Source of the DNA: Candidatus Nanopelagicus abundans
GTDB lineage: Bacteria; Actinomycetota; Actinomycetes; Nanopelagicales; Nanopelagicaceae
DNA length: 64,000 bases
Assembly (NCBI RefSeq): GCF_002288305.1
Contig: NZ_CP016779.1
Location: 1-64,000, forward strand
Direction: 5' to 3'
The position numbers and the translations under genes were made by a program. Numbering within the stretch: the first letter of the stretch is position 1; each line of letters starts with the position of its first letter. Under the pieces are notes generated by a model that saw only the letters and a program-made list of their open reading frames with translations, was not told the origin of the DNA and ran no database searches. Of the stretch, positions 20,723 to 26,011 are shown piece after piece.

Positions 20723-22741
20723 ATGTCACTGCCATATCCAGCAGCTCCAGCCCAATCAGTATCTAGAAATGTGCTGGCAATACCTGCGTTTAGAAAACTT
20801 TGGCAAGCAATGGCATTCTCATCTTTTGGTGATTGGCTAGGTCTTCTTGCTTGCACAGCTTTAGCTCAGCAACTAGCTGGTGGAGATTATGCAAAGGCAA
20901 ACTTTGCAATTGCAGGAGTTTTTATTGTCAGACTACTTCCAGCAGCTTTGCTTGGCCCATTCGCTGGAGTAATTGCTGATCGCTTTGATCGAAGAAGATT
21001 AATGATTATCTGCGATATTTTAAGATTCTCACTTTATTTATCAATACCAATTGTTGGTAATTACTTTTGGCTTTATACCGCAACTATATTAGTTGAAATT
21101 GTTACATTATTTTGGTCACCAGCTAAGGAAGCATCTGTACCCAATCTTGTTCCAAAATTAAAACTAGAAAGTGCTAATCAAGTCTCACTTCTTGCTGCTT
21201 ATGGGACCGCACCTATTGCTGCAATAGTTTTTTCGACTCTGGCAATTTTTACAGGCGCAATTAACTCAGCCCTTGGTAATAAAACACAAGCCTCTGCTGC
21301 TGATTTAGCTTTGTATATAAATGCAATTAGTTTTGCTTTTTGTGCTTACACAATTTGGCGTTTAAAGGAGATACCAGAGGGTCCTGGCAAAAATCTAAAG
21401 CAGATCTCACTAGGTAAATCACTTTGGGATGGATTCTCATTTATCAAAGATTCTAAAATTATCAAAGGTCTTATATTTGGAATGCTCGGTGCTTTCTTTG
21501 CAGCAGGTGCGGTAATTGGTTTAGCCAGAACATTTGTTGATGACCTACAAGCAGGTGAAGCTGCCTACGGTATTTTATTTGGCTCAGTGTTTCTTGGCCT
21601 AGCACTTGGAATATCCTTTGGCCCTAAAGTTTTTTCACAGTTTTCTAGAAGGCGCTTATTTGGAATATCTTTAACAATTTCAGGGATTTTATTAGTAACT
21701 CTTTCATTAATGTTAAACCTAGTACTTGCAATCTTTATAACAATCATTCTTGGTCTCTTTGCTGGTATTTCTTGGGTAACCGGATTTACCATGCTAGGAC
21801 TTGAGGTTGAAGATGAGGTGCGCGGGCGCACATTTGCATTTGTGCAGTCTTTAATTCGCGTTGCATTAGTACTAGTACTGGCGGTGTCACCATTAATTGC
21901 TGCAGCTATTGGTCAACATACTTACACTTTTAGAACAACAACTCTTACCTATAACGGTGCAGCATTTACTATGTTTTTTGCAGGCCTCATTGCAGTACTA
22001 GTAGGAGTGATTTCATATATACAAATGCGAGATCGGCCAAATGTTTCACTATTAAGTGATATCAAATCAGCATTTCGTGGCGAGTTAGGCACAATTACCG
22101 GACAAGCAACCGCTGGTGTGTTTATTACTTTTGAAGGTGGGGAAGGTTCTGGTAAATCAACTCAGACTAAGTTATTAAAAGATTGGCTAGAAAAGAATAA
22201 TGAAACAGTATTACTAACTAGAGAGCCAGGGGGTACACCACTTGGTAATCAGCTCCGCGATATTTTATTAGATAATAAAACTGGAAATATTTCACCACGT
22301 GCTGAAGCTTTAATGTATGCAGCTGATCGAGCAAATCATGTTTACACAATGATTAGGCCCGCGCTAGAAAAAGGTGAAGTAGTAATTAGTGATCGCTTTT
22401 TCGATTCATCTGTTGCATATCAAGGAGCTGGTAGAGTCTTATCACCTGCTGAAGTAGCAAGAATTTCAAGATGGGCCACTGAATCATTAACTCCAACCCT
22501 GACAATTATTATGGATCTTCCAGCTGAGATTGGTTTAGCAAGATTGCAATCAACTGATCGCTTGGAGAGTGAGCCATTGGCATTTCATGAAAGAGTGCGC
22601 CATGAGTATTTAAACCTTGCCTATCAAGACCCTGAAAGATTTTTATTAGTTGATGCCACATTAAGTATTGAACAAATACACCAAGTGATTATTGAAAGAG
22701 TTGGTTTAATTAAAGCTCTTAAAAGAAATCAAAAAAACTAA
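20723..22741 (+). CDS. tmk: MFS transporter-thymidylate kinase fusion protein
   Basis: The 672-residue protein joins two functions. Residues 1 to about 440 form a 12-helix major-facilitator transporter (motif A-like GVIADRFDRRRLM). After a short linker, residues from about 465 form a complete thymidylate kinase with P-loop FEGGEGSGKST (near 471-480), TREPGGTPLG, the DR motif VISDRFFDSSVAYQG and a lid region. Thymidylate kinase phosphorylates dTMP to dTDP. Similar membrane-anchored Tmk proteins next to topA and holB are known in actinobacteria. Nothing in the DNA suggests an assembly error: the frame runs open through the junction. The transporter's substrate is unknown. Confidence 0.95.
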   Translation: MSLPYPAAPAQSVSRNVLAIPAFRKLWQAMAFSSFGDWLGLLACTALAQQLAGGDYAKANFAIAGVFIVRLLPAALLGPFAGVIADRFDRRRLMIICDILRFSLYLSIPIVGNYFWLYTATILVEIVTLFWSPAKEASVPNLVPKLKLESANQVSLLAAYGTAPIAAIVFSTLAIFTGAINSALGNKTQASAADLALYINAISFAFCAYTIWRLKEIPEGPGKNLKQISLGKSLWDGFSFIKDSKIIKGLIFGMLGAFFAAGAVIGLARTFVDDLQAGEAAYGILFGSVFLGLALGISFGPKVFSQFSRRRLFGISLTISGILLVTLSLMLNLVLAIFITIILGLFAGISWVTGFTMLGLEVEDEVRGRTFAFVQSLIRVALVLVLAVSPLIAAAIGQHTYTFRTTTLTYNGAAFTMFFAGLIAVLVGVISYIQMRDRPNVSLLSDIKSAFRGELGTITGQATAGVFITFEGGEGSGKSTQTKLLKDWLEKNNETVLLTREPGGTPLGNQLRDILLDNKTGNISPRAEALMYAADRANHVYTMIRPALEKGEVVISDRFFDSSVAYQGAGRVLSPAEVARISRWATESLTPTLTIIMDLPAEIGLARLQSTDRLESEPLAFHERVRHEYLNLAYQDPERFLLVDATLSIEQIHQVIIERVGLIKALKRNQKN

Positions 22742-24576: not shown

Positions 24577-24633
24577 TAGTTGGTAAGTAAGAAAAATAAA
24601 GTAAGGTAAACTTAAGCTAGTAATTTCCCATGT

Positions 24634-24700
24634 GCTTACACTTTGTAAGCGCCTTGCGGGTCTTAATCTCTAATCACCACCAAGACGCGCATCATGTCTT
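24634..24700 (+). promoter_or_regulatory. Structured 5' leader of the DEAD-box helicase with competing stems
   Basis: Three elements lie in the 136-base gap before the helicase gene. Hairpin 1 is GCTTAC-ACTTT-GTAAGC (24634-24650). Stem 2 pairs GCGGGTCTT (24656-24664) with AAGACGCGC (24682-24690), with one mismatch in nine. The same AAGAC (24682-24686) can instead pair with GTCTT (24696-24700), which abuts the ribosome-site region. The two pairings exclude each other. A riboregulatory role is inferred. Confidence 0.45.
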
Positions 24701-24712
24701 GTTAGGTTGATT

Positions 24713-26011
24713 ATGTCATTTAAAGATTTAGGCGTTAACGCTGCGCTAATTAAAGCCTTAGTTGCAACAGGTATTGAAAAGCCATTTCCTATTCAAAAAG
24801 CCACATTGCCGGATGCAATTGCTGGCAAAGATATTTTAGGTAGAGGCCAAACCGGCTCTGGCAAAACCCTAGCTTTTGGACTTGCCTTAATGACTCGCCT
24901 AGCTGGTAAAACAGCTAAACCGATGCAACCACTAGCACTCATTCTCTCACCAACTAGAGAACTAGCAATGCAGATCAGTGATGTAATCGCGCCACTTTCT
25001 AGAACAGTAAATTTAAATTCACAAGTTGTTGCAGGTGGACTTTCATACTCTAAACAAATTCAAGCATTAAAACGCGGAGTTCCAATTGTGGTTGCTACCC
25101 CTGGACGTTTAATAGATCTTATTCAAAAAAAGCATATTAAGTTAGATGATATTTCAATTACAGTATTAGATGAAGCAGATCAGATGGCAGATATGGGTTT
25201 CTTGCCAGATGTTAAAAGAATTCTTGATCTAACTAAACCAGGTGGACAAAGAATGTTATTTAGTGCCACATTAGATAAAGATGTCGATTCATTAGTTAAA
25301 AAATACTTAAAAAATCCGATGACTCATTCACTTGCTAATGAGAAATCAACTGCCGGAAATATGAGCCACCACGTGTTAATACTTGAACAAGCACATAAAG
25401 ATTTAATTACTGCTCAGATCGCAGCTAGAAAAGGCAAAAGTATTTTCTTTGTAAGAACTAAACATGGCGCAGATAAGCTAACAAAAAAGATGAACGAAGT
25501 TGGAGTTGCAGTAGGCGCCCTTCATGGTGGTAAAACTCAAGCTCAAAGATCTAGAGTGTTAGAGGCTTTTAAATCAGGAAAAACAAATGCACTAGTAGCA
25601 ACTGATGTAGCAGCTCGCGGAATTCATGTTGATGATGTTTCGTTAGTGGTCCATGTTGATGCTCCTGAAAATCACAAAGATTATTTACATAGAGCAGGTA
25701 GAACTGCTAGAGCAGGCGCAGTTGGAACTGTGGTAACTCTTGCAACACATAAGCAACGCAAAGGTGTACATGGATTAACTGCTAGAGCTGGTGTTAAATT
25801 AAGTGAGTCAACAGTCAGGCCACTTGATGCTAATTTGATAAGAATTACTGGCGCAGCTGAACCATCTGGAATCCCAATTGTCTTAGCCGGTGCTACAAAA
25901 GGTGAAGAGAGTGGAAGATCTGATCGCTACCGCGGTTCAAGATCAAGAGGTGGCGGTAAAAAGAAGAAATCACGCCCTCGCCCACACGAGCGTCGCAAAC
26001 GTCCAAGGTAA
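24713..26011 (+). CDS. DEAD-box ATP-dependent RNA helicase
   Basis: DEAD-box helicases unwind short RNA duplexes in ribosome assembly and RNA decay. The protein of about 432 residues has the Q motif (KPFPIQKATLP), Walker A GRGQTGSGKT, PTRELA, DEAD in VLDEADQMADMGF, SAT, and motifs V and VI (ATDVAARGIH and HRAGRTARAG). A roughly 40-residue Arg/Lys/Gly tail ending in KRPR probably binds RNA. It is closest in layout to RhlE-type proteins. ATG 24713 is preferred over an in-frame TTG at 24707. The structured leader may regulate it. Confidence 0.95.
   Translation: MSFKDLGVNAALIKALVATGIEKPFPIQKATLPDAIAGKDILGRGQTGSGKTLAFGLALMTRLAGKTAKPMQPLALILSPTRELAMQISDVIAPLSRTVNLNSQVVAGGLSYSKQIQALKRGVPIVVATPGRLIDLIQKKHIKLDDISITVLDEADQMADMGFLPDVKRILDLTKPGGQRMLFSATLDKDVDSLVKKYLKNPMTHSLANEKSTAGNMSHHVLILEQAHKDLITAQIAARKGKSIFFVRTKHGADKLTKKMNEVGVAVGALHGGKTQAQRSRVLEAFKSGKTNALVATDVAARGIHVDDVSLVVHVDAPENHKDYLHRAGRTARAGAVGTVVTLATHKQRKGVHGLTARAGVKLSESTVRPLDANLIRITGAAEPSGIPIVLAGATKGEESGRSDRYRGSRSRGGGKKKKSRPRPHERRKRPR

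Follow-up and report, generated by a model that had tools for sequence, protein, structure and literature searches.

In translational riboswitches that sequester the Shine-Dalgarno sequence, an anti-sequester strand competes with a sequestering hairpin. Alternative structures that report on the RNA remodelling capacity of the cell are found in the autoregulatory leader of Escherichia coli deaD and in leaders of the cspA cold-shock type. DEAD-box enzymes, as a class, unwind short duplexes locally. The DEAD-box RNA helicase CrhR of Synechocystis controls its own expression in response to temperature (PMC3485376). In Caulobacter crescentus, the rhlE gene has a 5' UTR of 186 nt which is predicted to be structured; the gene is under post-transcriptional control and is induced at low temperature, transcriptional fusions of rhlE show higher activity when rhlE is mutated, and full expression requires the 5' UTR, according to the authors probably by way of mRNA stability (PMC5472812).

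The locus described here lies in a stretch of 64,000 nucleotides at the beginning of contig NZ_CP016779.1 of Candidatus Nanopelagicus abundans (the window), where the leader of a DEAD-box helicase gene can form two mutually exclusive helices, A:B and the hairpin P2. Strand A stands against P2 as the anti-sequester strand stands against the sequestering hairpin of the riboswitches. The helicase leader differs from them in having no visible conserved ligand-binding domain, while the sequence of its 5' hairpin (P0) and the length of its spacer are variable. The leaders of deaD and cspA resemble it in general description; they are long, of other sequence and from another phylum, and the product of cspA is a chaperone. 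The Caulobacter rhlE leader is a partial precedent, as it likewise belongs to an RhlE-type helicase with a structured UTR; it comes from another phylum, its mechanism is unresolved, and no alternating helices are described in the accessible part of the report (PMC5472812). Synechocystis crhR is also a partial precedent, for the self-control of a helicase, but in an unrelated lineage and through transcript and protein half-life, with no leader switch named in the accessible part of that report (PMC3485376).

The helicase gene and its leader

The gene at 24713-26011 (forward strand) encodes a DEAD-box RNA helicase of 432 amino acids, RhlE/CshA-like, in which Pfam PF00270 and PF00271 were found, in agreement with the original prediction of a DEAD-box helicase leader. 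Among the NCBIfam models CshA and RhlE are the nearest, both with scores under the curated cut-offs. The single-contig genome of 1.16 Mb contains no second close relative of the helicase; eight further Pfam DEAD matches all score below that of the helicase itself. Further upstream in the window, a frame of 672 amino acids (20723-22741, forward strand) presumably joins a membrane-transporter-like N-terminal part to a thymidylate-kinase-like C-terminal part, judging from its translation.

The leader, also on the forward strand, is arranged in the order hairpin P0, A box, variable spacer, B, C and ribosome-binding site. P0 is formed by 24632-24640 with 24644-24652 around the loop CTT, according to the predicted fold and to the relatives, and is slightly longer than the hairpin first placed at 24634-24650. 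The A box GCGGGTCTT (24656-24664) is followed by the spacer to B (24665-24680), which contains D (24671-24678), the predicted outer strand of P2. The B strand CAAGACGCGC (24681-24690) is common to both alternative helices. Its portion AAGACGCGC (24682-24690) pairs with A at eight of nine positions, laid out as 3 bp, one mismatch and 5 bp; the single mismatch that had been predicted is G24659/G24687. The competing pairing, originally given as AAGAC (24682-24686) with GTCTT (24696-24700), is present as well and extends to CAAGAC/GTCTTG (24681-24686 with the C strand GTCTTG, 24696-24701). It closes P2 immediately 5' of the ribosome-binding site (24702-24715), which is composed of a weak Shine-Dalgarno sequence AGG (24704-24706) and the start codon (24713-24715), P2 ending two bases ahead of AGG. 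In the folded window leader the predicted outer stem of P2 joins 24671-24678 to 24705-24706 and 24708-24713; it includes the GG of the weak Shine-Dalgarno sequence and the A of ATG, so that the site is partly within this stem.

Within one sequence, competing stems of this kind are not remarkable. By the same criteria, dinucleotide shuffling of the leader produced such a triple in 46 of 2000 cases, and the 64-kb window has one in 161 of its 2556 100-nt tiles; the bare observation is therefore only mildly unusual, at about 2-6%. The piece 24625-24740 folds better than 200/200 shuffles (z -3.2); the fold of the longer piece 24577-24760 is not special (z -0.6, 48/200 shuffles equally good). The single-sequence observation is weak alone, and it is the conservation across genomes that shows the switch element to be real. 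The proposed two-state leader ahead of an RNA helicase proved genuine, with both alternative helices kept across relatives.

Pairing and distribution among relatives

The relatives share the plan P0, A (GCGAGTCTT), variable spacer, B (CGAGAC-G/A-CGC), loop, C (GTCTCG), ATTGGT or similar, and start codon. Elements of this first form were collected with a finder that demanded full A:B pairing, and its 109 elements inform on the kind of mismatch and not on the frequency of A:B pairing; those with fewer than 5/6 B:C pairs were left out, giving 106. Among the 106, the distance from the start of A to the start of B ranges from 24 to 113 nt, and the loop between the B and C arms is 9 nt long in 76. 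The A box is nearly invariant within the first form.

Alignment A1 consists of 35 rows chosen by the A box and not by B (45 loci minus 7 near-duplicates, removed by hand, and 3 exact duplicates). Standard pairs make up 98.6% of its A:B cells, as compared with at most 74.5% when the partner is slid, and 90.0% of its B:C cells; the fold returned by RNAalifold is A:B. The covariation score and the counts of standard-pair cells on A1 were reached by 0/500 shuffles, a statistic that ignores the relatedness of the rows. Double-change pairs number two in A:B and three in B:C, equalled in 46/500 and 38/500 shuffles, respectively. The paired change in A:B is GCG/CGC to GUA/UAC, and B:C occurs as CGAGAC/GUCUCG, CAAGAC/GUCUUG and CGGGAC/GUCCCG (G-C to A-U and others). 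Compensatory changes across relatives are present in both helices, as independent events that are few and clade-bound. Alignment A3 has 82 rows (the 106 elements reduced to 79 by removal of near-identical ones, plus L014, L023 and L065) and is fitted to A:B, for which it gives 99.7% standard pairs. It is not fitted to B:C; the inner five pairs of that helix reach 92.2%, and one slid control outscores the real pairing in covariation (0.119 vs 0.105). The two helices exclude each other and both are conserved, a feature of two-state translational switches of the type that sequesters the Shine-Dalgarno sequence.

The plan recurs in high-GC actinobacteria (Amycolatopsis, Prauserella, Actinokineospora, Actinophytocola, Rhodococcus rhodnii and others) in a second form, with A = GG[CT]-Y-CGTC(C), B = GACG-T-[GA]CC and a clear Shine-Dalgarno sequence. 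Between the forms the letters of A are mostly changed and the A:B register is shifted by one base; the layout (3 bp, mismatch, 4-5 bp) is the same and the B core is similar, GAGACGCGC being present also at the second-form loci L026 and L107. An A-like motif lies upstream in 18/18 matches to a pattern of B plus Shine-Dalgarno sequence. These 18 rows, taken by that pattern together with the A-like motif, form alignment A2; parts of both strands are fixed by the choice of rows, and pairing percentages on A2 and for the high-GC covariance model are partly a product of it. RNAalifold on A2 again returned A:B, in which GGC/GCC to GGU/ACC is a paired change. The B:C core on A2 is not above shuffles (140/500 as good), and one column of the stem fails in 14/18 rows. 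In alignment A5 (46 distinct rows, fitted to A:B) A:B pairing is 89.1%; a single column, paired in 7/46 rows, is responsible for 39/40 of the failures, and the A:B covariation score of one slid control exceeds that of the real pairing.

The base between the two segments of A:B is unpaired in 109/109 non-redundant elements of the first form, always as purine-purine (A/G 63, A/A 39, G/A 5, G/G 2), and at the same position in 47/48 rows of the second form, there as pyrimidine-pyrimidine (T/T 31, C/T 11, C/C 4, T/C 1), with one C/G as the sole standard pair. The search patterns left the B side of this mismatch free and, in the first form, biased the A side to A or G. Such persistence would speak for selection for an imperfect duplex.

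The helix covering the ribosome-binding site is above control in the high-GC form, where in 44 of 47 rows the individual fold pairs the Shine-Dalgarno sequence with D, compared with 453/940 (48%) when D is shuffled; one of the 48 rows has no Shine-Dalgarno sequence by the pattern used. In the window's form this helix is a prediction barely above control. A D stem of at least 4 pairs was predicted in 104/106 elements and in 1866/2120 with D shuffled, and the real energy was better than at least 19/20 D-shuffles in only 10/106. A Watson-Crick match of 4 nt links D to the 8 nt following C in 41 of 79 elements (near-identical ones removed from the 106), as compared with 28% for D shuffled and 40% for D swapped between elements. 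The outer D stem of the window's form hardly exceeds these controls and is weak evidence, and the idea that P2 blocks initiation there consequently leans above all on the two-base distance between the end of P2 and AGG.

P0 was predicted to end at most 4 nt before A in 91/103 relatives, when the 34 nt upstream of A were folded. The mean folding z of the P0 region is -3.5, with z < -1 in 93/103 relatives, and a strict test (gapless 6 bp, spacing of 3-4 nt) was passed by 28/76 relatives vs 16/1520 mononucleotide shuffles. The sequences of the P0 stem are variable. Upstream of P0 the window has a -10-like promoter motif, GGTAAACTT (24605-24613, forward strand). Of the 61 relatives with enough upstream DNA, 24 have GGTAnAMT at a distance of 20-130 nt before A vs 0.5 expected in shuffles. 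From this motif, the transcription start is likely to lie upstream of P0, and the distances at which it occurs argue against a transcript starting downstream of 24656. A C-rich run (CCCC or similar) was seen 5' of P0 in most of 16 hand-picked rows (alignment A4), among them second-form leaders of Rhodococcus and Actinocrispum.

Two covariance models were used for searches, R1 for the first form and R2 for the high-GC form; searches over more than 40 genomes used strict filters, and absence there is not proof. R1 matches 24650-24715 of the window (forward strand, 64.3 bits, E 1.9e-17), a sequence that is itself a seed of the model, and nothing else in this genome. It matched 100/151 genomes of the family (71/83 among those of good quality), 195/296 genomes of the order (92/108 among those of good quality) and 1/198 genomes of a phylum sample, the window's own alone; 23 non-seed loci were also matched. 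At 98 of 101 R1 loci the helicase follows on the same strand; two more loci are cut off by the end of a contig, and the last is a weak second match elsewhere, which gives a linkage of 98/99 testable loci, with L219 (E 3.6e-4, second match in its genome) as the exception. The element is positioned directly before a DEAD-box RNA helicase, as is characteristic of an autoregulated helicase leader.

In the window's genus, 13 of 25 genomes have helicase and element, 11 have neither, and in one the helicase is cut by the contig start. The 11 (G006, G007, G010, G017, G020, G023 and others), some of them 80-87% complete, gave no full-strength helicase match and no element, while close relatives have kept both; repeated loss or assembly gaps are possible causes. 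At L020, L048-L064 and similar loci, and at many of the non-seed R1 loci, the N terminus of the helicase is longer by about 250-330 residues. The frame is open for up to about 990 nt ahead of the aligned start, and the switch has shifted with it, being found at or near the start of the longer frame. Two full-strength R1 matches, some of them equal-scoring, were present in each of the draft genomes G616, G717 and some others, probably due to duplicated contigs or mixed bins.

R2 matched 6/296 genomes of the class, where one match (L148) appears by eye to lie inside a coding frame, and 3/40 genomes of a sample overlapping the class set. In the family of its best match, 33/40 genomes, each of another genus, gave 34 matches; among the newly fetched loci the helicase is downstream in 29/29. 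Of 65 relatives' loci, 12 non-seed loci were matched by R2 (E < 1e-6) and 10 are below the thresholds for both models, the best being L029 (R2, 24.7 bits, E 0.001). Among 19 more helicase upstream regions from 16 genomes (L221, of 62 nt, left out; L229 at least partly masked) R2 gave one match with E < 0.01, the unconvincing L232 (21.8 bits).

Comparison between genomes supports both helices as well as the mismatch retained in A:B, the association with the helicase and, in the high-GC form, the pairing of the Shine-Dalgarno sequence. Rfam 15 recognized only two tRNAs in the whole window, both elsewhere; for the leader, with E allowed to reach 10, one opposite-strand match far under the gathering score; and for 20 relatives' loci one tRNA and no other family. 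No description of such a helicase leader was found in the literature searched, to which most subscription journals did not belong. The leader may be regarded as a new RNA family, a variant of the two-state translational leaders.

Predicted folding and a candidate mechanism

Folding order, stabilities and barriers were computed for the 106 elements, which had been chosen for pairing. In RNA ending two bases past B, A:B lies within 1 kcal/mol of the ensemble in 101/106. In full-length RNA, P2 is predicted to lie below A:B in 93, 97 and 99 of the 106 at 5, 20 and 37°C. For transcripts of the window, the best fold is A:B at ends 24690-24700 and P2 from 24706 on, alternating between these. The predicted gap, with P2 lower, is on average 5.0, 5.0 and 4.8 kcal/mol at 5, 20 and 37°C, and its near constancy in the modelling speaks against an equilibrium thermosensor, one of the roles suggested initially. 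The barrier of the direct path from A:B to P2, estimated with one heuristic method, has medians of 13.3, 17.2 and 20.7 kcal/mol at 37, 20 and 5°C.

Opening C and the next 30 nt would cost 14.9 kcal/mol in the free ensemble vs 9.5 with A:B forced (15.9 vs 10.1 in the window), a saving that is due in part to forcing A:B, which frees C. With A blocked, the free opening cost rises by more than 0.5 in only 69/106 elements, with a mean rise of 1.9; for the stretch after C by itself, the mean opening cost stays the same (10.5 and 10.4). In 76/106 elements this stretch opens at lower cost under A:B than under P2; the 8 nt following C have an unpaired probability of 0.39 whichever state is forced.

A mechanism can be proposed in which A pairs with B first in the nascent RNA (8 bp plus one mismatch). 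With A:B formed, B would be unavailable to C, P2 would not form, and the ribosome-binding region would be more open (ON). P2, with an outer stem reaching the Shine-Dalgarno sequence, would be the stabler end state, on or against the ribosome-binding site (OFF). Since A competes with C for B and the hairpin of C stands on or against that site, A:B is most simply taken as ON and P2 as OFF. By the model barriers, passage from A:B to P2 would be slow, and slower in the cold. The helicase would open A:B and P2 would take over, so that helicase output would drop when unwinding activity is ample and remain high when it is in short supply, e.g. after cooling. We infer both the assignment of ON and OFF and the role of the helicase in flipping the switch; a short imperfect duplex, predicted to be made first and to resolve slowly, in the mRNA of a DEAD-box enzyme suggests negative feedback on unwinding capacity.

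Autoregulation by the helicase, already among the roles suggested for this leader, is the reading that fits best, and the switch probably lets the helicase turn down its own production once enough enzyme is present. The full scheme, a cis-acting translational switch that is translated as A:B, shut as P2 and reset by the helicase unwinding A:B, is put forward tentatively, its chances being judged slightly short of even. Somewhat doubtful, if well worth considering, is a ligand-free sensor in which each new transcript would fold into the kinetically trapped, translation-competent A:B with its obligatory mismatch, a test substrate that only sufficient DEAD-box unwinding would reset to the shut hairpin.

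Alternative readings and biological meaning

A different account would have one of the states (e.g. A:B with its mismatch, or P0) bound by a protein, be it the helicase or another, or by a small molecule, with regulation by this binding and not by unwinding. It would also explain the nearly invariant A box of the first form, the B core alike in both forms and the kept mismatch; it is unlikely nevertheless, as the letters of A mostly change and the register shifts between the forms, spacer and P0 sequences vary, and the element has no sign of rRNA mimicry. When the leader was compared with the 23S rRNA locus of the same genome, nothing beyond 9 exact bases or 12/13 was found. A metabolite riboswitch was also rejected: apart from the switching strands there is no conserved aptamer, P0 sequence and spacer length vary, and no Rfam riboswitch was matched. 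Sequence and length are constant only in the switching strands and a few bases after C, which makes a ligand pocket unlikely. Temperature alone might instead drive the switch, through melting or because A:B is trapped at low temperature, with no action of the helicase on the leader. Several bacterial DEAD-box helicases are cold-induced (PMC5472812), and with barriers rising from 13.3 kcal/mol at 37°C to 20.7 kcal/mol at 5°C fresh RNA would stay longer in A:B when cold. This reading is improbable, given that the constant modelled gap from 5 to 37°C leaves no equilibrium shift and that the barrier at 20°C looks high for the lifetime of an mRNA, which would seem to call for a resolving agent. A cold-shock role is conceivable only via slow refolding in the cold, as far as the models go.

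P2 could also be a plain inhibitory hairpin, or an RNase or stability element, with A kept for another reason. P2 is the stable fold in nearly all sequences and the high-GC Shine-Dalgarno sequence pairs with D, and the D-shuffle controls add to the confidence in this reading while lowering that in the helicase switch and in the activity sensor. It is still judged quite improbable, as A:B is more fully paired than B:C (98.6% vs 90.0% of cells) and RNAalifold returns A:B in both sets. Control by a translated leader peptide or upstream frame is very improbable indeed: the frame from the ATG at 24630 in the window does end at TGA 24708-24710, just ahead of the helicase start, but the distance from A to B modulo 3 takes all remainders (25, 39 and 42 of 106), and the P0 sequence is unconserved, with no common frame.

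If the reading as an activity sensor is true, the helicase uses its own mRNA to gauge how much free catalytic capacity it has, with a design that has been kept in two actinobacterial lineages although the letters of A are mostly changed and the register is shifted. For the dosage of general RNA helicases, a conserved and compact leader that presents the enzyme with a short duplex as substrate and ties the opening of this duplex to translation would provide a direct example of feedback on catalytic activity. The family made up of R1 and R2 is a new RNA family that marks the helicase in uncultured actinobacteria, to which many relatives of the window belong, and it is found also in the cultivable genera Amycolatopsis, Lentzea and Rhodococcus.
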